Below are positions 1,765-17,274 of a stretch of 64,000 bases of DNA, one piece after another. The stretch spans positions 3,177,770 to 3,241,769 of the forward strand of contig CM057142.1 of the NCBI GenBank assembly GCA_029964075.1, written 5' to 3'. The position numbers were made by a program, and so were the translations under genes. The notes under the pieces are model-generated. The model was not told where the DNA came from, searched no databases, and saw only the letters and a program-made list of their open reading frames with translations. The DNA is from Patiria pectinifera (Eukaryota > Echinodermata > Asteroidea > Valvatida > Asterinidae). Position 1 is the first letter of the stretch; every line of letters begins with the position of its first letter.

Positions 1765-1902
1765 GTTCATGGGCTTTGAGAAGGGAGACGACTACAAGAA
1801 AACCTGGAAGTCATCTGAGGATGGCAAGGTTAACTCCAACCAGCCAATGCGCATGGAGGATAACCGTGACGGTGGTAACATGCCCTCATCCTATATCACA
1901 AG
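1765..1902 (+). CDS. SNAP25: SNAP-25 linker exon
   Basis: 138 nt between CCAG and GTAAAC. The first base completes a codon from the preceding, unseen exon, and the last two bases (AG) join the G at 3220 to give Arg. It encodes 45 residues from the end of the linker: [12 protein letters not shown], then an Asp/Asn/Met-rich stretch with QPMRMED. This aligns with the vertebrate segment after the palmitoylated cysteines. A TA-flanked MITE ends only 89 bp upstream, at 1675, and the downstream intron opens with an AAAC microsatellite. Confidence 0.9.
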
Positions 1903-4900
1903 GTAAACAAACAAACAACCCCAACAAACAAACAAACAAACAAACAACAATAATTAGTGTACATGTAAATTTTAACTTTAGACTTTAGTAATTTACCACT
2001 CTGAATGTAGAAAGTATTGTAGTCAAGTCAAGTATCGTGTCTTTAATAGTGTAATTCAATGGTCTATGGGCTCAGTGCTCCAACAAAAGAGGGCGCGTTT
2101 TTACCACTTTTGAGAGCCCCTTGGACGGGACACCGCGTGTGCGTACTTTACTGGTTCGCGCACGAAGTATTTATCCTGAATGTGCACAAAGCTAAACCAT
2201 AGCGTCTTCATGCGTGAGCGTCAGGCATCGTCGGTGCGCGAATAGGTTCGAATTTACCTTGCGATTGTCTCCCAGACTAGTCCCCGCCCCCAATAATTTT
2301 GGATCATTCGAAATACGCAGTGGATGGACCAGGAACCAGGTTAGGTCTCCCCCAACTCTCCTTTTCTGGCCGCTGAAATGGAGCCCATAAGGGCAGGGTG
2401 GCCAGTCTATAAAAATAACCCTTTACTTCATATACACTGTGTTGCATATTAATTACCCCTTATACACTGCGTTGCATATAAATTACCTCTGCATTGCGCG
2501 TGCATGTAGGACAGCCGGCCTGCGCGCCTTGTGGCTGAGAACTGCAACCACTCAGTCTCTTGTCCGGCAGGAAAGATCCCAGTTATCAAAAGGTTTCAGT
2601 TATCAAAAGGTTTACACAGCGGTGCTTTGATTAATCTCTTGCATAGTAAGTCACAAGCCAATATATTTTGACTTATTGTCACGATATAACAAAACAATTG
2701 TTGGCTGCTGTGATGTGCGACATGGCTTCTTTAAATCTCTAGGGGTGCTATGCGCCCCTCGGGTGTTAAAAACGCCATATTCCATATCACATTAGTCAAC
2801 AATTATTGACTTTTAACTGTCCCTAAAAGACCATCCACATCGAACGTTCATAATAGCGTGATCGACTATAAGCCAGTCTCAACAATGTCCAAGTATTTGC
2901 AAAAAGACTCGTACTGAATTTGACTTCCGTAAATCTTTCAATTTTTCTTGCACAAATGCGTTACCTGGTTTGACTAAAACCGATATTTCTAGCTTTCAAA
3001 ATATGCAATGCAGCATTAGTGTCTTAGCTTGATACTGCAGAAATAAAGGGGGATGGTATGTTCATTAAACCGGGTTTCCGGGAAATAGATCTTGACTGAA
3101 ACACTTCTTCTTGACAACTAAACGTTTTTTAGCCAGTCTCAATGCACTATGCAATTAGAAAAACACATCAAATTTTCATTGAATACATTTTAATAGCCCT
3201 GAATATGTAACGCCTCCAGGATAACGAATGACGCCCGCGAGGACGAAATGGACGAGAACATTCAACAGGTGAGCGGCATTGTGGGTAATCTGCGCCACAT
3301 GGCCATTGACATGCAGAGCGAGATCACTGCTCAGAATCGCCAGGTGGATCTCATCATTGACAAGGTAAGGATGGCCTTCAGTTTGACTTTATCAGCAACT
3401 TTAGAAGTACAGACATTTGTCCTTCTTTTGTGTATAGATTTCCCCCCCCCCCTTTCACACCAAAAAATTACACAGTTCCTCAAAAGAGCTAAAGGCTGGT
3501 TTATGCTTCGCAGGAATGCATATGAAAGAAAATATAAATCATGAAACATTCGTAGCAAAACTTGTTAGAGTCCAAATGTGTTCAGTATCTGCAAATTCCC
3601 GTTACATACCGGTAACATCCCAAATTTGCATTCATGTGCGCTTTTCTACCAAGCATGAACTGGCCTTATCTCTGCAAGGGACGACTTACTCAACAATTTC
3701 AAAAACAGAAAAAAGAGGGATGGTATTTGAAACACACAGTTGGGTTATTTTGGGGGGGGGGGCTGCACAATAAACTGAGTAAAACTCTTAACGCTCTTGT
3801 TGAAATTGTGGGGATACATTTTTTGGATGAATGAAGTTTGGTTTGTTTGGTATCAAAAAAAGTGGGATCCCTTTATACCATTAAATGTCCTTTAAAATTG
3901 TTGAAAAAGGCTTAAGAATGGATACTTTTACATCATGTGTGAATATTAGGGAAAGGAAACTATGTCCTCAATTATATGTGGAATGAAAAACAAAAGTCTG
4001 TCCAAATGTTATCTTATAATTAATGAACACCCATTGAAGTTACTTGTGATTTTGGTGGTAGAATGTACATGTTATCAGTGTTGCATGTGTGTCTATTATT
4101 TCCTCTCCGCTTTGTGTTGTCATCATTATGTTCTTATATTTGTACCAAATTTTCAAAAGGTGAGTTCTGACATTGGTTTCTGTTTATCTTCTTAAGACTT
4201 CATGTCCTCAACGGAACAAGGGGCAACGACATATGTCTTGCATCTTAAGATGTAGTTGCATCCTTGTCCACAAACTATACATGTTTATACAACGCTTGAA
4301 TAAATCCCCGTCATCTGATTGGTTGTGTCGTTGATCACGTGTCCTTGCATTGTTCGTCCCAACGCATTGCCCGGCCGCACCCCAAAGTGTTCTATTCCAC
4401 GGTAAATAGAAGTTCAATTTCACGGTCACATGATTTGTGGCTCTGACTAATCAGATGACAAGGATTTATTCAGGTGTGGTATAAAGCAAATAATGAATGT
4501 TTCACATTGGAGCAATGGAAAGAATAATTTCATTCGGTGACAGATGGAATGTTCCATGGAACGTATCCCATCTGTCACCTCATGAAATTATTCTTTCCAT
4601 TGCACTCATAAACATTCATTATTTGCATAATATGCTTCCTACGAAAACACAAATGAGCAGTTGAAAGAAAACTGCAACCAAGTGAAACAATTGTGGGGTT
4701 CAAGTAAGTTTTTTTAATTGAAGGCTCCAATACTTTACATGTACTACAAGTACAACTCATTCGGTTGACTGAAAATGGGAGTAATTTCTTATTTAAGGAT
4801 ATGGTTTGTACCACAATTTTTGTTCAATATTGAATTCAGTTTGAGAAAAATGATAATATAATAATTGAATTTAATTGTAAGTTCCACAGTATTTATTATT

Positions 4901-7900
4901 TCAAGGAAGCCGTTTCCATTGGTTTGTTGCCTGAATTGTATTTCCAAATCTATCTTTCTCTTGTGATCTTTTGTCATGTAAACTTAGCAGCCAGAACTTT
5001 GAAAAAAAATTAAGAGATTTACCACAACTTTTCAGATACGACAATATATTTGGCAAACATCTGTCATGCTATTTCAAGATGAAAAATTCAAAAATAGCTT
5101 GATTCATAATATCCGCCGAGGCGTTAAAGTTGCATTTCAAGACCTGGGGAGATTCTAGAGTATGGTAACACGATGGGGGATGGCAAAGCAGAGAGACATC
5201 GATGAAACAGCCATCGTCAACTGGACAGATGAGAAATCTTGAAGTGACCCTACAGGGTTTGCTGTGATCAAGTCATCCTTACAAGGGCGTGCTGTACGGA
5301 GCTTGATGGGCAAGAGTATATTCTCCCTAAAGAAACACCTCCCCCGGGACTGTGCCGAAACCGGAAATACTACAAGTGAAATTGCACAGAAATGGCCAGG
5401 GGTCCAAAATCCATTTCCGTCCGTCTGGCGATCAACAATAAAATTTGTCAGTTGCCTGGATTTGGGATTCAAGGTGACCCCCAAATCCTACATTATTTTA
5501 GGAAAAAAAAATTGCTGCATTACAAATTCCTTCCAGTAGATCTCTCCTTGGAGTTGGGTTCATAATGAATGTTATTGGATAATGACGGGCAGAAATTCAC
5601 AGGACTGGCTTCTGAGTTTTGATATTTTGTTTCCATTTTTTAATGTGTGATGTAGTAGTGGTGCTGCATGACTGAAATGTGTAGAGTGAAGTGCGCTTGT
5701 TTTGCACCTTGCATTAGTTGTTAAGTACGAGTCTTGGAGTCATTTGTGTTAATGTAGTCATGGAAGTAATGGTTGTAGATTTCCCTATTTTTATTGGTGT
5801 TCCTGCTGAAATTGTATCTTTAATTCCTACATGTATTCTTAAGGCAATCATACTCACTAAAACAATTACATTTCTGCGGTTGTGAATTAATCAAAATGAG
5901 TTTTTTAACTTGAGTGTTTCATTTGAGCCATTTCATTGAACTAAATGCGTCATATTTTGGCTTCCTTATCTTTCACCCATTTTTCCTTTTCTCCATGCCA
6001 CCCTGTCATCCACGCACCATTATGAAATCGATTTTTCCTGCCGCCATCATTCCGACATTGACATTTCTCCCATTTGACGCCTATTTATTCCCGACTTCAA
6101 AACTAAATCGAAAATTGCTCACCACCATTTTCCCCCCTAAATTACATCACCCTTTCTCACACACGCTCTCAACCTTTGACCTTTCAACCTTTGACCTTTT
6201 TAACCTATAACCTCTGGTACCTCTGGTCACACCCTGCATACCTTTATCTAGGGCACATCCAATGTTGATCGTCTTTCTGCTGCTAACGAGCGTGCCAGTA
6301 AGCTGCTCAAGTAAACAGCCCATGCTCAAGCTACTCGTCAAAAGCCAAAACAAAAAACCCAGTCTGGGGGCTTTTTTCATCACCAGCACATACTTTCATC
6401 ACTGCATGGAATCATCTTCATCTTGCCAGGTTCTTTTTTTTTCTTTTTTTTTTCTCGCAGCTCTGTAAAAATGTTTAAAGATCTCCTTTTTTTGTCTCAT
6501 TCTAAGTAATAGTTTTAAGTATTCAATGTAATATTGAAGTTAAGTACAATGGCAAGACATTTAGGATAAACATGTACAGTTCAATCAGCAATACATTGAA
6601 TACAAGATTTTTGAGTGCGGAGAATAATTTTCACAAATGATCTCGAGTAGAACAGTTTGCAAAGTGGCTGTCATTCTGGCCTGGATGGCCGTTGATTTTA
6701 GACATTACAGTTACATGCACAAGGTGTTCAGGATTTTTACAAAAAAGTGTCAAAATTTTCTCAAATTAGATTGAAAAAAATGTGTTCACCGACGGTGCAC
6801 TCAATCAGCAATCAAAAATGGCAAACGATGTTCAAATTGAAAAAAAAATTAAAAGGGTGTCCTAATGACATTGTGACACTTCTCTTGTTATCTTAGTAGC
6901 ACTTGTACTACATTGTATTACATTGTATTTATTCCCAGAAAAATCCATAAAATTATACAGTGCTTGGGCGGTTTCGGGCCGTACAAGTCGAAATATGTAC
7001 ATGTAGGGCAGTTGGGGGCGGTACAGGGGTTAAGCTATATGGTCGGTTTTCAGTTATGTGCAATTATCATTTAGCATAGGATTGAGTTTATAAGCTTCAT
7101 TTATTGGTTGTCAAATTGTGAAACCATACAAATGACAATTTGAGGGTAAATCATCTTAAAATATCCATCAGCAAAATAGGTAAATGCACACCTGATTCAA
7201 AGAAAGTATGGTATCAAACATTAAGAAAAGATGTTAAGAAAGACCGAATTATTGTATGTACGCAAAAATAACATTTCAATTTTGATATTCTCATTGTGAA
7301 TTTATTGACAAGTATTTTTTTTCGGCTGTTATATGAAAAGTGATGGTCTTATGTATAAATTATATCTCAGTAGTTGCCATGGCAATCCTTATTCGTGCTG
7401 CTGGGATTTGTTTTTGCATTTTCTTCAATATTCACATACTAGTATTTAAAAAAAAAAAGACTGATGTATTTATTTCAGGTTAATGTTAAAATGTCATTTG
7501 TCTTTATTTGCTGCATTAATAGACCGTTTCACAGAAACCACCATTTTTGTGGTCACGTGGTACAGACATAAACATGTACATCCCAGCATGCCATTGTAAC
7601 CTGAGCATGATGGGAAATATTTATATTGTAGTGCCACCTGAGATTATCACGTGACCGCAGGTATGGCGGTATTCGTGAAGCGCTCTATGTACATGTAAGA
7701 CGAGAAATGAATTGGTGGGATAGGCCACAGATAATGCAAGGAAATATCCCTATTTTGGGAAGCAAGAATGGTGAAACTCGATGTACGTTTAGAGAAGACT
7801 CCTGATATGGACTCCGTGCACGAACAATAGATGGCGCTGTTTGCCACTTTTGAAAGCCCCAGTGGCAACCTTGTTTCCATGGAGACGATCTCGCTGCGCC

Positions 7901-10900
7901 ATGTTGGTTCCCATCATGCCTTGCGCAATCTTAACCCCTGGAATTGTGGAATTTAAATATCCCACTATTTGGGGCATTTAAATTAGGACTGCAGTTGATA
8001 TATTTAATGCGGGATGCAGTGCTCAACATTTTTTAAGCATTTTTTTTTTTGCAGAATCAATCCTTTCAAACATGAAATTTCTATGCCGTGTTATTTAGCA
8101 AGGATTTATGTGAAATGTACGTACCTCTGTCGTCCCTTTACAACACAAGATACAGGTTTTTGGGCAAAAAACAGGCATCCAGAATCCATATATCGTAGGG
8201 GCAACGTGCAGTTTTGAAAAAAATGTTTGTACTTGATGTGACGTATAGGGCGTGCAGTCTTCAAAATACGCACGCAGTACGCTCTGATTAGCCGGTCAGT
8301 GTCGTTTACGTATTCCTCACGGCCAGGGGTTAGTGAAGGAATGCGCACGCGCCCATGGAGTCGAGGCTGCCCCAGTTGGAGTGTCACGCCTCGAAGGCGT
8401 ACTGTTTCACGTGTATGGGATGTGTGCACGGCTAAGTTTACTTTAAATGCACACAAACCTGGCGTGAGCATCAGACAGTGCATTCAAATGTCCCTCCCAT
8501 TGGTCTCCCCCAACTCTCCCTTTGTAACCATTGAGGGGGTACTTGTGCACGGAGTCCATAGTCAGAAACAACATTCTTGGTAGTTTGTTGATTAAAGAAA
8601 GAATCAATAAAGGTGTCTGTTTTTTATGGAATTTTTTCTGTCATCGAAACCATTAAATAAATGAATCAGTTTAATTAATTAGTATTTATAGGCAATCTGA
8701 TTTAATTTTCTCTTAACATCAGATCTTATTCTTTCTTCCACTGTTAAATAAAAAGGAGTTCCACAAGTGGTATTTGCACGTAGAACACGGAGAGAACAGA
8801 AAAAGAAGAGGGGTTTTGCAGGGCATTTATCATGATCAAAAGAAAAAGTAAAAACCTACTTTCAGTTTGGGCTGAGCTATTACTTTGATCAATTTTGATC
8901 AATTTCGACGAATCAGAGTTTCATATGAATTTTGCTGTTCTGTGCCAGAACAAAGAAAGTAAGGCAACAGCCAGAAAAAAAAGAGCACAAAATTGTTTTC
9001 ATAACTGTCTGAGTTAGTTAGATCTTCAGTCTGCATTGCCAATTCATGACGCAGCCACAAAACGCTTCCCTTTGTTTTCTGTTCTCTTTGTTTATCTGTG
9101 GGTAGCATGAGGGAAGCACAACTGTACTCTGAACTCTTTTTCCAATGAATTTCCAGAGATGATCACTCCTAAAGGCTTGACTTGCCTTTGACGCTTACCT
9201 CTTTTATGGTTCATTACGGATGGTACTTAATGTAGTGGTGGTGTTGAATGCTGGTTTCCGTTGTTTTCTTTCTGTTGATTTATTGTTTTATTGTTAACAA
9301 GGCAGCAATAAGCACCTGTTTCATTTTAACGAGTTGCATAATTTACTTTTTGGGTTGATTTAACATTTGTCGCATGGCAATTATATTCCACTGGTTTGAA
9401 TTTATTTTATGCCCATCGCCTTTTTTTGAAATTTTTTTTTTTTTATCTCTTTTGTACATCCTTGGTAACCCCCCTTTGAAAATAACTTTTCATATTAATT
9501 TTGAGTTTTGGTATTCTAATAGAAAGGAATTGAATATATTAAAGATGCATTCACTTCTTGTACAAAAATGCCATTTTGAAGGGAAACAAAATTAAGGCTG
9601 CTCTTTGCAAAACAAAAGCCCTTCTTGTTCATAAATAATTGATCAAGAAAATATTGAAGTGCACTGCTACCAAGGCACAGGAAAAGTGAAGAAAGATGGA
9701 CCATGTGGCAATGTGTAAGACAAACCAAAAATGAATGTGTAGTCTTTAAAACCAATTTATGTTTGATCTTGCATGAGGATGCCTAGCGACACCATGTTGT
9801 ATCCCCAATTCTCAAAATTAACCACCTCTCCTATGCCTGATGCAAGCACGTGTAGATTCCAGGCATTCTTATCTGTAGAAGTGTGCAAAAGGCTGTCAGA
9901 GATCAAAGAATCGAGGAATGAAAAAAGGATAATTATGATTGGTGGATTGCATAGCTTAGCTTAACCAATGGCTAACACCGTTATATACTCACTTGGTGTC
10001 ATGCAAGCAACCCATTAATAATGCTTTTAATCCTCATTGTTATTTCTCTTTTCTCCCATGACCTCTCCACATATTGCTAACCGACACCACCTCCTCCTCC
10101 TTTTTTGTTCACTTACGTTGACACCACCCTCTGCCCTACCTCACCAACCCACAGGCTGACAGCAACAAAGATCGTATTGGGATTGCAAACAAACGGGCCG
10201 AGACCATTCTCAAAAATTGATGCGCTTGAAAGCAAAGCGCCCCCAACCCTGCGCCTGTCTGTGTGTGTTCGTGTTCGTGTCAACCTGCCTGCCTGCCTGC
10301 CTGCCTGCCTGCAAATTAATATCAGAAACTTAAAACCCCTGGCACTTGAATCACCTTTAAATCTTCCTCTCCCATTGGTTGGTTTGTTACTGATCACTAA
10401 CCTCATTGGTTGATTGGTGGGTGATGTCATCATCTGGGAGTGTACAAGGGAATTGTTGTCATCTCCTCAATTCACAGGTTCATTTCAAACCACTGTAGCA
10501 AAAATGTCAGAATAACGGCAATTTCCGTTAATGGTCACAAAAATCTTTGCGTATCACTCTGAAGGCATGTCGGACACTGAAAACTGAACCTTAATACTGC
10601 AAAGGAATGGGTTTTTTAATTTCAAGTCTGTTTAAGAGCTGGATATTTTCTGGCAGAGGTTCATCAATTGCATGAAACTCAATATATTTAGTTCTAGACT
10701 AGAAACAAATGGTCATGTTTGGCTTTGAAAGTAACTTCCTATCGTCGACTGAGCTGAAACACTGCGGAATATATTTACCGTGAAGGGTACAATCACAGAT
10801 TTTAACTTTTTACCATTTACACGTTGCAACTTAGCTTGGAAATAAATGTAGGCAGGATTTTCTTCTGTTTTATTGTAATAACTACATTTAAGCCTCTGTT

Positions 10901-13900
10901 TTTGGTTTGCAAGATTCTTTTTCAAGTTGTGCTGGCCAGCCATTGCTACCTTTCCAATTTAGCATTACACTGGCTGTGTTGTTAGTCAAACTTGTCAAAC
11001 GCACATCTGAACTACTGTTTATGTATTGAGATATTCAGATCCAGGGACATATCAAGAGGGGGAAGGGTAAACTTCCCCCCCCCCCAACATATTTTTTCAG
11101 AAGATAAATCTATTGATACCACAGCCCGATTACACCAAAATATGTAACTAATCGGAAAAAAGGATTATGCACGAAAATTTCATATCACATACTTAATTAC
11201 AAACCTATTTCTTTGAGCCCCTTCCCCTGTCCTCCACACCCCCTCCCCCACACCACCATTAACTCTTCCACTACCATCTCTCCCAACTCCAAAATTGAAA
11301 AAATAGTTTTTGAAAACACCCATGCTCTCTCTGAACAAAGCATGCTTTAAAAGGTTGTTTTAATACTGTCCTCTAAAACCTATAATTCATGAAGAGAAAT
11401 CTCTATTTTTAATTTTTTTGCAATGAGTTGGACACTCAAGATAGGAATTCATTGGGGAAAGGTTGGTTTAAGGCACACTAAAATGTTTTATTTTTTGTGA
11501 TTGACTCCCGAACCAAAAGGGAAACTGCAAATACGCTGTCTAAAATTGTGTGTTTATTTTGCAATGTAACTGCTGAGGCGTTTGACATTCAAAATGCTGC
11601 CTGAAAATGTGCAAATAAAATTGTGACAAAAAGGTGTTTTTTTTACCCTTGCACTTTTGCCAGTGAAATGTATTGCCCGTAATGTTGATTTTGTGAAACT
11701 CTGTCTGCAATTGTCCTCAAAAGAAAACAAAAGTAAAAATAGTCCTCGAGAAAACAGGAGAAAGTCGATTTTTTTTAAACATTTTTAAAGTCGATGTCTT
11801 GGGCAAGCATAAACTGTTCAGGCGGCATTGTGAAAGAGCATGTTTAAATCTCATATCAGAAGTTGATTAGTTGGAAACAATGAACTGATAGTTTCAACAT
11901 TAGTATTCATTTTTTAACATTCCGTCTCTAATTAAGGCAAATAATTGTATACTCGGAGAGTTGTCACAAATTCAAAGCACATACCAACACAGAAATAAAG
12001 TCGCGTGAATTTGAGTGGTTCGGAAGTCCCTGAGATATTTTTACATTTCTTATGCTTAGAATTTTGTGATTGAATTATAAAAATGTTAAAAACCCAGAAT
12101 AGTTTTATTCGCAAGTATGTGCGCATTTAGTAATATCTTTCAGCCTAATATCTTTCAGCCTTGCTGAACGAAACTGATTCAACACAGTGGTTGATCTTGG
12201 ATGTGTGGTGAATATTGGCGTTATATTTACACATCTCTTGCTGCCGTTGGCAGATTTAAACAAGGATATTAAATTTCCAAGACACACAGTCCGCATTTAT
12301 TTCCTTTCCCTGTACTCAAGTATGTCCCCTACACGACCCCCATCATCAAACATTTCAGGAAACAGCACGTCCATAAAAATCAGAAAAAAGCACCATTGAA
12401 ATTAGTATGCATGAGCACACATGACTACAAACGGCTGGTCATATTGTTTCCATGGCAACAAGCATCGTATGTTCATTCAGTTCAGTAGATGTAGGCGACG
12501 TGCTTCTGAAATTTCAAACCCAGAGTCAGTTTGAGCTTGGTTAACCATAGTTCAATTAACTTTACTGGAGCCTGTGATGTTTGGTCGACTCAGTTTACTC
12601 TAGTTGACTATTTGGAACCGGACCCTAGGGCACTGTTGCATCACTATCTGTCAGTGTCCGTGTTACATTATCATTAAACATGAAATAGTAGTGGAAAACG
12701 GCAATGACTGATAACCAAGCCAAGAAATGCAGCCATTGACAAATGTGAGGGACCATGTACAATTTGTCACCAATGGTCTTTCAGGCAGTCTAATTGTGCT
12801 AGTGGTTAGGAGAAATCCATTTTGAGCTAGTCATCCATAAACTTACCCCACATGGAGAATCGAGAGATGTCTTTAAAAATATGGAAACAGGAAAATGACA
12901 GAAACAAACTTTCTTGAATTGTTTTCCAATCATCTTATCCAGTCCTTAACATCGCACCCTTCCTTGTGACCAGTATAATCTTTTGTATCAAATCACTGGG
13001 TAAAAATCTCAAATTTCCTTTTCCAGGAATGTCGTACAATATTTCAGATCATCTCAGTTGACTGCTTAAAGGCCTTTGTTTTCAGTATGTTCTGATGTTT
13101 ACACTACAACCAGCCCCTCCCCATCCCCCTCCCATCCCTCGTCCCCCACCCCCTTAAACATCCTGGATCTGCTAGCTCAGTCAAATTCTTACATGGGCAT
13201 ACTTGGTTACTTGGTTGGTTCTTCTCCTAAATACTCCGCAGGGGAGTTTTAACAGAAGGCAGAGTAACTCAAAAGTTTTCCTCATAAGCTGTTTTAATAA
13301 AATAAAAAAAATAGACAGTCCAAGACAAATGACAGGTTTGATTTTAACAACACAGCCGCAAAAGGACCATGTATTATGGCTACATTAGCTAAATTAACAC
13401 CAATAGCTCATAACCTTTCTGCCTGATAAATTCAAAGTACTCATCCATTGATATCCTCTCAGTTACTAACATTGATCGGTTACTTCAGCATGTACACTCA
13501 AGCTTTGCAAAAAAAAAATTGATCATTGCTTGATTATCTATAAGTGGTATCCTTTGATGCAGGTGTGAAGCATTACGTAATTTCAACATATATCCCATCA
13601 GAATAAGCCTCTGTACTGATGACGTCACACTTTGTTTACATGTGCACTTTCCTATGGAGCCAGTGGGGGTCCACGGTCCACCATAGGAAAGCACACACAT
13701 AAACAAAGTGTAAAGTCATCAGTACGGAGGCTTATTGATCTATAGAAATATTCTGTCATTTAATCATTCAAAATTGATATCATTGTGATAAAAGCTATAC
13801 ATGTATCAACTACATTAAATACATTCCAAGATATCCTTTTTGACAAATTTGTAACCACTTAGACTATTTCTGACATTCCTTGAATATAAATTCCTATTTT

Positions 13901-16900
13901 CTCTTCACCAAGCCTACGTTACAAATTTTAGCACTCGGTCATATTTCATAGCGCTGCTAAGCACATGATTTTCTGCTAACAGAGCCTCCATCTATTTCAT
14001 GGAGACCGTAAACCAGTAAGCGCTGCACAGCAAAAGACACGCTTACCTCAAAGGGAGAAAAGTTGCTTAAATCAATGGCGAAACAATAGAAATCTCCATG
14101 CGCGTACGGCCATCAGCACTTCCATGCCATGAAATAGTGCTTAGCGTTAGCACAATTAACAGCTTATAGTTACCACAACTTTTCTGCTAACTATTAAGCA
14201 GTGCCATGACATTGGCCCCTGAATGCAGATGTCAAAGGACATGTCGTTCCATATTTTTTTTAAAATTTATTTCCATAACATTAACCTGAATTATCTGTGG
14301 GAAATATGAATACTCGTAATATTCATCAAATTGCTTATTTAACAAAAAGTTTTTAATGTGCAATATATGTTTCCTCTTATAAATAAAAATATGCAGTAGA
14401 ATAATATTATAGCTTAAAATTGCAGAAAGATGTTTGTTTCGTTTTGGTACATGCAGTGGTCCTTTTCAGACTGGAATACAAATTGTAATGAAATCCTCTT
14501 TTTTTGTGGCAAACATTGTTTGAAAAAAAAAAAAAGTGTCGTATTACAAAATCTACTTAAAGTCTGGAACTTGAGCAATAAAATTGGTGACTTACCCCTA
14601 GAGGGCGCTCTGCATAATTGTTAACGTTAAGACATGACCACGAATAGTAACAAAAACAGAACACTCAGCTTTTTTCTTAGTACCCTCTCCATTTACTATT
14701 TAAAAAGAAATATTTGAAATTCTTTGTAAACTTGTATTTTCTAGTTGTAGTTTCAAGGAAGTTGCTGATCTTCTGCGATTGTAGACATATCAATGCATTC
14801 CTATCTGTCGAAGTACTGAAGTATCTTACCGTAATAACTTTTAAGCATTTTCTTCAAATTATAAATAGTATACATATTTACAGCTGTACATTTTAAAAGT
14901 AATGTTGGAGAGATTTAAAAGTGTTATTTACAAAAGTCTAGCTGTGGTTGTAAAATTTCCATTTTTATGTTTAATCTTGTATGATATTACTTTTGCTATA
15001 AGATTTTAATATATTATATTCACATGAAATGATATTATGAATAGTTATTTCACATTGTATCTAGAAAAAAAATCTTTGAATTTTAGCCATTTTGGGAAAG
15101 AAATGTAACTTGTTTATTGGGGGTGAATTTATTTCTCTTTGGATGTTTCTGGCTTTTGACACAATTGTTCTGTTTTAAAAAGACAGCGGCTAATTCTGAT
15201 GGTTTTTTTTTTTAGACAATATAATTTAAAAAAATTTAAAAAAGAAAGACAGGAAAACTAAAAAAAATTAGTTTTTCTACTGAATCCAAGAATGAAAACT
15301 AATTCAACTGAATCCAAAACATTTCAGAAAACAAAACAAAAGGGTAATTAATTTTTGAGTTATAAATTCAAAGTGTTTCCCTAGATTGTGAATTAGCTAC
15401 AATTTTGTGATTCATGTAAATCTCGAGACTAGTATTATTCACATTTCCAACGTTCTTCAATTTGACAATTGCTACATTTCATTGAGTGTATGTCAATATT
15501 AAATGCAGCTCTACTTCAAAGTTATCTTGCAAATGATTTTTTTATTTTGGATTCGGAGTTTCTGAAAAAGGGTGTTTCAATGTTCATTATGTTTCTGTTA
15601 TGTTTAATTTGTTTTGTATCTGTACGGTTATGTTGTTTTGAATCAGTTGAAATCCAAGTCCAACTTTTAGAATCACAATTGCACAAGTGGACATAAAACA
15701 GTTCTGATATTTCATTTAAAATTTAAGCAGTTGTTGTGTTCAACACCGAACCACATCTTCATAATTAAATCCAACATCTGGTTTTGTTCGATATTAATGG
15801 AATATAATGCTATGGGTTTTCTGACATTCTTGAACAAAGCTTCAACAAATCATATGTGTAAAGTAACTTCCAAGCATATAGTGGATTTAGGAATAAAAGT
15901 TTGTTTACTTTTACCACATCATCAACAAAGAAATCCTTAGAAATCCAAACATCCATTGTCTATGCATGCAGCAATCCATTGTGCAGAATATCATGCATGA
16001 TCATATTGCGCAAAATCATGCCATGTTACCATGTTCTTTTCATAAGTAAAATAAATCACATAAAGCAGTGAATTTTTTTTGGAGGGGGGGGGGTTCGAAT
16101 TATATCCATTGAAACTTCTGTATGATGAAAATGGGAGACTTTTGAGACGCTTACATGTAGCAGCAAACACACCGGTCCTTGTTTTCTATTGTTGTCATCA
16201 TTTTGAACATGCGCATAAATTATCACCTTAAACACGACTTACATGTAGACAATTGAAAAGGACCGTTGTGTTTGCTGGCACCAAACGTCTCAAAAGTCTC
16301 CCATTGTAGAGTATTACACAATGTCATTGCTACCTGTGGCGATTACGTCATCCAAACTGAGTGTGTTTTTATGAGTTGTGGACTGTGCATTTGTTTTGAG
16401 TTTGATGGTTTTAGTTTGATTTTCATACTGCCTTCAACATACTGTGATGTTAAAGTTCAACATACTGTGATGTTAATGTTTGTGTGTTCTGTAAAACGTT
16501 TTTAAAACCACATTGTTGAATACCATAACTTAAACTCATCTTTATCAAATCTGGAGTTTGTACTGTTTGTCCCATTGGTTTTCCATGTTGTCTTTTTTGT
16601 ATGTTGTACAATATCTCCTGTTCGTGAAAACTTTGTCATTTTGTTGGCCGTGGGTTGTCTTTATTGTCTGGCCATAACATTTCTGCATCGGTGTAACAAA
16701 GGTGAGAATTTGTCAAAGTACACTGGTTTTAGATTATCCATTTGCCATGTACAATTTTGTACACAGTCCTCCTAAAACACAACAGCCCAAAATGAGGAAT
16801 TCATGCTCACATACGATTAAAGTCCCCTCTTGGTCAGTCGCAGATGGTGATCACACATGTGACCTTTGACCAAGCTGTCCTGATTTTTTTTAAAGGGAAA

Positions 16901-17274
16901 GTAAACTCAGGCAGGATGTCATTGTAGATTCTGCCCATACAAGACGATAAAGTGATGCCTTTCCCAACTTCTGGTTCTTAACCAAAGCAGCAAGTGGGGG
17001 AAAAAAATGTTTCACAAACTGCAGTGCTGTACTGTATGTGATAGTCTGGCCTTACTCTTCAAGTTGTGTTGACTTTGTGAAGAAGTCCTGGTTCAGGCTT
17101 TTGCCTTAAACTTTTGTCCAGAAAGTAACAATGAGCAGTTCCTTTCAACCATTCAACGCCTGAGTTAATTATTCTGTTTTGTTACTAACCAATGTTCTTC
17201 TCCAGGCGGAATCCAACGAGGAGAGAATCTCGCAAGCCGACAAGAGGGCCAAGAACATCTTAAGGAACAAGTAA
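1765..17274 (+). CDS. SNAP25: SNAP-25-like Qbc-SNARE, 3' part, with three alternative terminal exons
   Basis: SNAP-25 is a plasma-membrane t-SNARE that pairs with syntaxin and synaptobrevin in exocytosis. Constitutive exons seen: 1765-1902 (linker, begins [14 protein letters not shown], ends ...SSYIT plus AG) and 3220-3364 ([16 protein letters not shown]... to DLIIDK). The latter holds the first part of the second SNARE motif, with the zero-layer Gln in ITAQNRQ. Both have AG/GT borders; phases are 2 then 0. Three candidate last exons start in phase 0: 6252-6314, 10155-10220 and 17206-17274, each with its own stop. Upstream exons for the first SNARE helix and the Cys-rich palmitoylation segment lie before the window. 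Family similarity to animal SNAP-25 is strong (NDARE-EMDEN--QVSGI-GNLRHMA-DM). SNAP-23 would be the alternative name; invertebrates often have a single SNAP-25/23 gene. The intron after 3364 is 2.9-13.8 kb long, depending on the exon used. Confidence 0.93.
1903..1950. repeat. AAAC/AACA microsatellite
   Basis: GTAAACAAACAAACAACC then (AAAC)n to 1950. It begins at the donor site of the SNAP-25 linker exon. Confidence 0.75.
2067..2387. mobile_element. GGACTCCGTGC-family MITE, copy 2 (diverged)
   Basis: TGGGCTCAGTGCTCC at the left and GGAGCCCA at the right, with TA on both sides (2065-2066, 2388-2389). Internal GTGAGCGTCAGGC and CTCCCCCAACTCTCC match copy 1. It lies in the SNAP-25 intron after the linker exon. 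Confidence 0.7.
3220..3364 (+). CDS. SNAP25: SNAP-25 second SNARE-motif exon (constitutive part)
   Basis: 145 nt: one base finishing the Arg codon, then 48 codons ending in DLIIDK, then GTAAGG. It contains the N-terminal half of the second SNARE helix through layer +2. Its phase-0 donor is compatible with all three downstream terminal exons, so splice choice alone decides the last SNARE layers. Confidence 0.95.
4294..4474. mobile_element. MITE with GAATAAATCC..GATGA ends
   Basis: CTTGAATAAATCCCCGTCAT then CTGATTGG at the left is inverted as AATCAGATGACAAGG then ATTTATTCAGG at the right. Confidence 0.6.
4486..4626. mobile_element. Palindromic foldback family E, copy 1
   Basis: Near-perfect arms: GCAAATAATGAATGTTTCAC, then CAATGGAAAGAATAATTTCAT, then GGTGACAGATGG, and their inverse. 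It directly follows the MITE ending at 4474. Confidence 0.75.
6252..6314 (+). CDS. SNAP25: SNAP-25 alternative terminal exon A
   Basis: After ...TTTATCTAG the phase-0 frame reads [20 protein letters not shown] and stops at TAA 6312-6314. Using human numbering as a guide, layers +4 to +8 (188, 192, 195, 199, 202) are Asn, Leu, Ala, Ala, Leu; layer +3 is Gly instead of Ala. Arg is kept at 191 and 198. The acceptor has a moderate pyrimidine tract with GCATAC and CTATAAC as branch candidates. An ATTAAA at 6848-6853 could serve polyadenylation; the nearest AATAAA I see is 8606-8611. The TAA overlaps a GTAAAC donor-like string. The exon could be a decayed copy, but it is uninterrupted and every core layer is conservative. 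Confidence 0.8.
   Translation, partial: GTSNVDRLSAANERASKLLK
7808..8558. mobile_element. GGACTCCGTGC-family MITE, copy 3
   Basis: TGGACTCCGTGCACGAAC and GTGCACGGAGTCCA are inverted, flanked by TA at 7806-7807 and 8559-8560. It is 751 bp and probably contains a further insertion around 7930-8230. TA duplication points to Tc1/mariner-type mobilisation. Confidence 0.75.
10155..10220 (+). CDS. SNAP25: SNAP-25 alternative terminal exon B
   Basis: It follows a long C/T-rich tract and the acceptor CCCACAG. The phase-0 frame begins [16 protein letters not shown] and ends LKN before TGA 10218-10220 (21 residues). It is the closest of the three to vertebrate SNAP-25 (ADSNKTRIDEANQRAT). Layers +3 to +8 are Ala, Asn, Ile, Ala, Ala, Ile. 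The CCTG microsatellite at 10285-10312 would be in the 3' UTR, with AATAAA at 10841-10846. Confidence 0.88.
   Translation, partial: ADSNKDRIGIANKRAETILKN
10285..10312. repeat. CCTG microsatellite
   Basis: About six CCTG units, 65 bp after the stop of SNAP-25 exon B, so in its presumptive 3' UTR. Confidence 0.8.
13602..13736. mobile_element. Palindromic foldback family D, copy 1
   Basis: Arms of about 55 bp (AATAAGCCTCTGTACTGATG, then ACGTCACACTTTGTTTACATG, then TTTCCTATGG) with about seven mismatches, around a 20-bp centre. It lies in a SNAP-25 intron. Confidence 0.7.
17206..17274 (+). CDS. SNAP25: SNAP-25 alternative terminal exon C
   Basis: The acceptor TTCTTCTCCAG is preceded by a TTACTAAC branch-point consensus (17182-17189), the best splice context of the three. 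The phase-0 frame begins [16 protein letters not shown] and ends LRNK before TAA 17272-17274 (22 residues). Layers +3 to +8 are Ala, Asn, Ile, Ala, Ala, Ile. It is more charged than exons A and B. AATAAA at 18365-18370 is a possible poly(A) signal, but a foldback element lies between it and the stop. Confidence 0.9.
   Translation, partial: AESNEERISQADKRAKNILRNK

Follow-up and report, generated by a model that had tools for sequence, protein, structure and literature searches.

Three candidate alternative terminal coding exons at the single SNAP-25 locus of the sea star Patiria pectinifera

Introduction

How many different ends can a single SNAP-25 gene give its protein? SNAP-25, which powers the fusion of secretory vesicles, is among the best studied proteins of neurobiology, and the picture of its splicing derives from the vertebrate exon 5 swap, in which exons 5a and 5b form a mutually exclusive pair whose duplication has been placed in early bony fish (PMC2581893). 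The question is raised here by a 64,000-nucleotide stretch of DNA from the sea star Patiria pectinifera (the window; contig 14, 3177770-3241769, of a 613.5 Mb genome, with contig position equal to window position + 3177769), which carries a SNAP-25 exon followed by three homologous coding exons, each ending in a stop codon, that we call e1, e2 and e3. An earlier note on this DNA had mentioned the vertebrate swap, which is an established case, and had proposed that one SNAP-25 gene here possesses three alternative terminal coding exons. The evidence presented below leads us to regard as very probable an invertebrate SNAP-25 gene at a single locus, with three alternative terminal exons of which any one can be joined to exon 7.

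Anatomy of the terminal exons

The exons concerned are the following.

Window 3220..3364, forward strand: SNAP-25 exon 7, encoding most of the second SNARE helix; the common upstream exon, with a single donor (AAG/GTAAGG, the slash marking the exon border).
Window 6252..6314, forward strand: alternative terminal coding exon e1, 20 residues and then a stop.
Window 10155..10220, forward strand: alternative terminal coding exon e2, 21 residues and then a stop.
Window 17206..17274, forward strand: alternative terminal coding exon e3, 22 residues and then a stop.

Exon 7 is 71% identical to residues 136-184 of human SNAP-25. On re-reading the sequence, the coordinates, AG acceptors, phase 0 and single donor at 3364 that the earlier note had given proved exact: each of e1, e2 and e3 lies downstream of that donor, is immediately preceded by AG and begins in phase 0. 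One donor, several acceptors of the same phase and a stop within each exon is the arrangement of alternative terminal exons.

Resemblance to the end of a SNARE helix by chance was assessed across 184 kb (the window together with 100 kb on its upstream side and 20 kb on its downstream side). In this sequence 7185 AG-preceded frames stay open for 19 codons or more (3504 on the forward strand, 3681 on the reverse), and each was given a score for its similarity to the human exon-8 peptide. The scores of e2, e3 and e1 were 52, 46 and 45, while the best of the other frames reached 15 on the forward strand and 19 on the reverse, with a mean over all frames of -15.8 (standard deviation 8.6). A chance match is ruled out by this gap, and the description of the three exons as 20-22 residue homologues of the SNARE-helix end holds. 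No fourth terminal exon stood out in the 184 kb at the sensitivity of human exon-8 peptide scoring. At 12 of 21 positions e2 and e3 have the same residue, and at 10 of those 12 the codon differs. Proportions of synonymous and nonsynonymous differences (pS/pN) were 0.885/0.31 for e2-e3, 0.687/0.422 for e1-e3 and 0.621/0.44 for e1-e2, so that by this measure constraint is clear for e2 and e3 and weaker for e1.

Relatives and conservation

A homologue search returned 2332 protein matches, of which 120 were listed and parsed; 33 named species were tabulated, leaving out unnamed, vertebrate-hypothetical and other single-name rows, and 15 of them had more than one listed protein. The proposal of one gene with three ends is supported by annotated isoforms of other sea stars, in which the peptides recur: Patiria miniata isoform X5 ends exactly as e1, Acanthaster planci isoform X7 ends exactly as e3, and the ends of Acanthaster X4 and Asterias rubens X4 match e2 at 19 of 20 residues. 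Searches with individual ends gave one match among 2 candidates for e1 and two among 13 for e3, in a database whose clustering at 90% identity conceals isoforms that differ at the end alone.

More than one last exon was present in 11 of the 15 species with several listed proteins (Acanthaster, Apostichopus, Ptychodera and eight molluscs), and within a species the alternative ends were 33-57% identical. Mercenaria isoforms X1-X4 display all four combinations of two exon-4 forms with two last-exon forms; two Saccoglossus records carry no isoform label. Of the 20 residues compared, 14-17 agree with e3 and 9-11 with e2 in the e3-like ends of sea urchin, brittle star, crinoid, sea cucumber and one hemichordate, and the e2-like ends of sea urchin and sea cucumber share 13 and 12 residues with e2 against 10 with e3. 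In a tree of 32 terminal peptides (22 columns, strong support on 3 of 28 inner branches), e3 groups with echinoderm ends of the same type, cnidarian ends and mollusc 'SL' ends, and e2 groups with ends from sea urchin, sea cucumber and hemichordates, the split between the two halves having 70/73 support. Evidence against a clean division into two types comes from Apostichopus X3, which scores 52/52 with e2 and e3, and from Ptychodera X4 and Saccoglossus, which score best with e1.

Differences among the three ends

The earlier note had placed the differences among the ends in layers +3 to +8 of the SNARE helix and in the tail. The peptides do not bear this out: at the layer positions, which we assign by a SNARE numbering taken as given, e1/e2/e3 read G/A/A, N/N/N, L/I/I, A/A/A, A/A/A and L/I/I. 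The core thus hardly varies, and it is the surface that takes most of the changes. Seven of the first 20 positions are identical across all three, the variable ones being mostly on the surface, and each peptide has a net charge of +2.

This near-constancy of core and charge lends some weight to a reading in which all three ends are used but their differences are neutral, with the choice serving selection of the 3' untranslated region or polyadenylation site, since each exon would come with its own 3' untranslated region. We give this reading a minor but real chance. It has to contend with the residue-for-residue identity of e3 in Acanthaster and with the e3-like ends of sea urchin, brittle star, crinoid and sea cucumber, whose clear preference for e3 over e2 argues that each end type has been kept distinct.

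Structure of the whole gene

The remaining coding exons lie upstream of exon 7; the exon 4 pair and the alternative first exons fall outside the window and were therefore beyond the reach of the earlier note.

Contig 14, 3093431-3093499: first coding exon N1, MDDNNMRSELEEMQMKADQVTDE.
Contig 14, 3120096-3120314: alternative first coding exon N2, beginning MPEPSE.
Contig 14, 3146360-3146521: alternative first coding exon N3, beginning MPSPSP.
Contig 14, 3159103-3159144: exon 3.
Contig 14, 3172052-3172100: exon 4a, SQDVGIKTLVMLDEQG.
Contig 14, 3173172-3173220: exon 4b, SKEAGIKTLVMLDEQG.
Contig 14, 3177204-3177321: exon 5.
Window 1765..1902, forward strand: SNAP-25 exon 6, the linker, beginning AG/G and with donor AAG/GTAAAC.

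All SNAP-25 coding exons were thus located, by tblastn with human SNAP-25 and exon joining, with GT/AG borders and matching phases, and the locus spans about 101.6 kb from the start of N1 to the end of e3. Joined in frame, they give isoforms of 207-209 amino acids that contain both SNARE helices and a cysteine-rich linker (CCGLCVC), and each of three assembled isoforms scores 74.9 bits for the SNAP-25 family (Pfam PF00835), whose cut-off is 25. Compared with Patiria miniata isoform X5, the assembled protein has a different residue at 2 of 177 positions.

Three homologous terminal exons in series could also have arisen as tandem SNAP-25 gene duplicates, whose downstream copies are reduced to their last exons or have other exons that were missed. 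Against this, tblastn with human SNAP-25 found no second copy of exon 5, 6 or 7 in the 184 kb, a whole-genome protein search with a 155-amino-acid query gave at least four matches, all of them at the SNAP-25 locus, and in other species the alternative ends are labelled isoforms. Tandem copies were rejected on these grounds, and we consider them extremely improbable compared with alternative splicing of one gene. The same tblastn search gave a single exon-5 match, and no duplicated exon 5 of the vertebrate 5a/5b type was found in the 184 kb.

At the other end of the gene, N2 and N3 have their counterparts in the N-termini of two Acanthaster isoforms, X4 and X7; two of the three alternative first coding exons swap the start of the first SNARE helix for unrelated leaders, basic/acidic or proline-rich. 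A separate observation concerns exon 7, where the residue matching human R180 is Leu; it is Arg in 118 of the 120 listed homologues, Patiria miniata among them, and the Leu may reflect a difference between species, allelic variation or an error in the sequence.

A second switch at exon 4

Exons 4a and 4b are each 49 nucleotides long and encode 16 residues of which 13 are identical (pS/pN 0.6/0.079). Inclusion of both creates an immediate stop and omission of both a frameshift, and in a full-length protein the two are therefore necessarily mutually exclusive: homologous neighbours, one of which is needed to keep the frame. The pair exchanges residue 40, which is Gln in exon 4a and Lys in exon 4b. 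K40 is among five SNAP-25 residues mutated to disrupt the primary interface with synaptotagmin-1 (PMC9811660). Of the 120 listed homologues, 60 have Q at this position and 55 have K; R occurs in 3, and S and E in 1 each. Exon 4 varies between the proteins of 11 of the 15 species with several listed proteins, as Lys/Gln at residue 40 in nine, Glu/Lys in Babylonia and Lys/Lys in Haliotis, and the pair is also present in annotated hemichordate and mollusc isoforms.

Splice signals and AG-free zones

The acceptors of the gene differ widely in what precedes them.

Contig 14, 3173171 and back 667 nucleotides: AG-free zone before exon 4b, the longest AG-free stretch in the 184 kb.
Window 5928..6249, forward strand: AG-free zone before e1, with an AG-to-AG distance of 324 nucleotides, the second longest of 9403.
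Window 10008..10152, forward strand: AG-free zone before e2, with an AG-to-AG distance of 147 nucleotides; 9 of 9403 gaps are as long.
Window 17183..17189, forward strand: TACTAAC, a branch-point-like motif before e3 in the conventional position.

The distance from the acceptor AG to the previous AG is 669 nucleotides at exon 4b, 324 at e1 and 147 at e2; at the other six of the nine acceptors it lies between 23 and 78 (exon 4a 78, exon 3 67, exon 5 56, e3 41, exon 6 33, exon 7 23). Among the 9403 AG gaps in the 184 kb, those of 669 and 324 nucleotides rank first and second in length, and they end exactly at the acceptors of 4b and e1. As controls, the longest CT gap, which represents the opposite strand, is 193 nucleotides, and AG gaps grew no longer than 252 in 100 first-order Markov simulations. 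Shuffling each zone produced sequences without AG in 0 of 5000 trials for 4b, 5 of 5000 for e1 and 561 of 5000 for e2. Human AG exclusion zones of at least 100 nucleotides, a length that the zones of exon 4b, e1 and e2 all reach, occur in 838 of 67334 introns and are associated with alternative splicing and distant branch points (PMC1431707). That the two longest gaps end at the acceptors of 4b and e1 suggests regulated distant branch points, and these statistics lend independent support to regulation of exon 4b and e1, their branch points being putative.

A PTB-type explanation of the long zones was rejected, the PTB-like motif TCTT being depleted in the zones of 4b and e1 (298 and 299 of 300 shuffles reach the observed count). 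The motif YCAY, which we take to be Nova-like, showed enrichment upstream of exon 4b (its count is matched in 2 of 300 shuffles) and of e1 (4 of 300), values left uncorrected for the several motifs tried; no such enrichment was present before e2 (35 of 300) or e3.

Several observations weigh against the reading of one gene with three ends. The AG-free zone of e2 is unexceptional for its composition, as its shuffles indicate, and the PTB-like motif is scarce, not abundant, in the zones of 4b and e1. An AATAAA or ATTAAA lies within 533-1060 nucleotides past each terminal stop, and such motifs are expected by chance in introns that long. The NCBI isoforms of the relatives are automated models. 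The pS/pN contrast of e1 is modest (0.62/0.44), and its peptide was found in one other species only, a Patiria, although 90% clustering hides isoforms.

The last two points also feed an alternative in which true use is confined to one or two terminal exons and the others, e1 the likeliest among them, are recent or decaying duplicates predicted because they are open. In the searches made e1 is known from Patiria alone, its pS/pN contrast is the weakest of the three, and it sits on a long branch of the terminal-peptide tree. Yet its peptide is unchanged between the window and P. miniata with splice site and frame intact, the second longest AG gap of the 184 kb precedes it and is rarely reproduced by shuffling, and the other two ends are preserved in Acanthaster, e3 completely and e2 at 19 of 20 residues. 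We judge this alternative unlikely, and retain the reading in which exon 7 is joined to any one of the three ends.

Discussion

Under this model of a single gene with three ends, joining exon 7 to e1, e2 or e3 would yield t-SNAREs with the same core layers and a different membrane-proximal surface on the second SNARE helix. The choice of end, together with any tissue control over it, would probably fall to the 3' splice sites: a long AG-free, pyrimidine-rich zone typical of distant, regulated branch points precedes e1 and, with less clarity, e2, e3 has a conventional branch-point-like motif, and each terminal exon is expected to bring its own polyadenylation site. Exon 4 would act as the second switch, with Gln or Lys at residue 40 within the primary synaptotagmin-1 interface, and its choice would tune the synaptotagmin contact. 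Cross-linking has shown that, before fusion, the complexin accessory helix binds the second SNARE motif of SNAP25 at its membrane-proximal end (PMC7116205). The alternative ends could accordingly tune the complexin clamp or synaptotagmin control, the last zippering step, or disassembly.

How does this arrangement compare with known systems? Like the vertebrate 5a/5b pair (PMC2581893), it diversifies SNAP-25 through a duplicated exon inside a SNARE helix. The vertebrate pair concerns exon 5 (the end of the first SNARE helix and the linker), which is single here in the 184 kb, whereas in the sea star exon 4 is duplicated and the terminal exon triplicated. The human distant-branch-point exons, such as PTB exon 11 with an AG exclusion zone of 381, are likewise alternative exons immediately preceded by a very long AG-free zone; they are internal and several are PTB-regulated (PMC1431707), while here one is terminal, the zones are not enriched in PTB motifs and the branch points are putative.

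Closest in kind are the annotated NCBI SNAP-25 isoforms of echinoderms, hemichordates and molluscs, which make the same sort of switch and whose sea-star peptides are identical or nearly so; they are automated models, and the molluscs have two end types among those listed, compared with three terminal exons here. The earlier note knew of no described gene with alternative final SNARE exons. This calls for correction, given the alternative ends carried by those automated isoforms in echinoderms, a hemichordate and molluscs, and given the syntaxins considered next. No paper describing alternative SNAP-25 ends was among the matches listed for the SNAP-25 splicing literature.

Alternative C-terminal exons are also a feature of syntaxins (for example syntaxin 3A/3B, syntaxin 1A and UNC-64), in which alternative last exons similarly change the membrane-proximal part of a SNARE. 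Syntaxins, however, are Qa-SNAREs with transmembrane anchors, whereas SNAP-25 is a Qbc-SNARE without one, and here the change is confined to the final 20-22 residues of the second helix.

The 22-column tree of terminal peptides leans, with weak support, toward an origin of these switches before the protostome-deuterostome split. We offer only tentatively, as a possibility we would not rate as probable, that the terminal-exon and exon-4 duplications of SNAP-25 predate that split. Invertebrate SNAP-25 would then be an ancient combinatorial SNARE, with up to 18 forms here (3 first exons x 2 x 3), one switch altering the synaptotagmin contact (Lys40/Gln40) and the other the membrane-proximal surface touched by complexin, and vertebrates would have lost both before later gaining the exon-5 swap.

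If invertebrates do choose among SNAP-25 ends, they would provide a natural exchange experiment on the last part of the helix to zip, one that varies the surface while leaving the core unchanged, and the role of the membrane-proximal SNARE surface in clamping, triggering and disassembly would become directly testable with natural end variants. The AG-zone statistics offer in addition a simple genomic sign of regulated exons for which RNA is not needed.

Other features of the window

Rfam and tRNA scans of the window gave no match. Three intronic inverted repeats, at 13602-13736, 4512-4603 and 4284-4485, have arms of 56, 39 and 40 nucleotides that are 85-92% complementary and are perhaps small transposons. 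A perfect 28-nucleotide palindrome lies at 73-100 (CCAACGATGGTCGGCCGACCATCGTTGG). Neighbouring introns contain two similar stretches, at about 1560-1690 and about 2205-2380 (CTTCATG...GAGCGTCAGGC...; CTCCCCCAACTCTCC...), which look like copies of one dispersed repeat.

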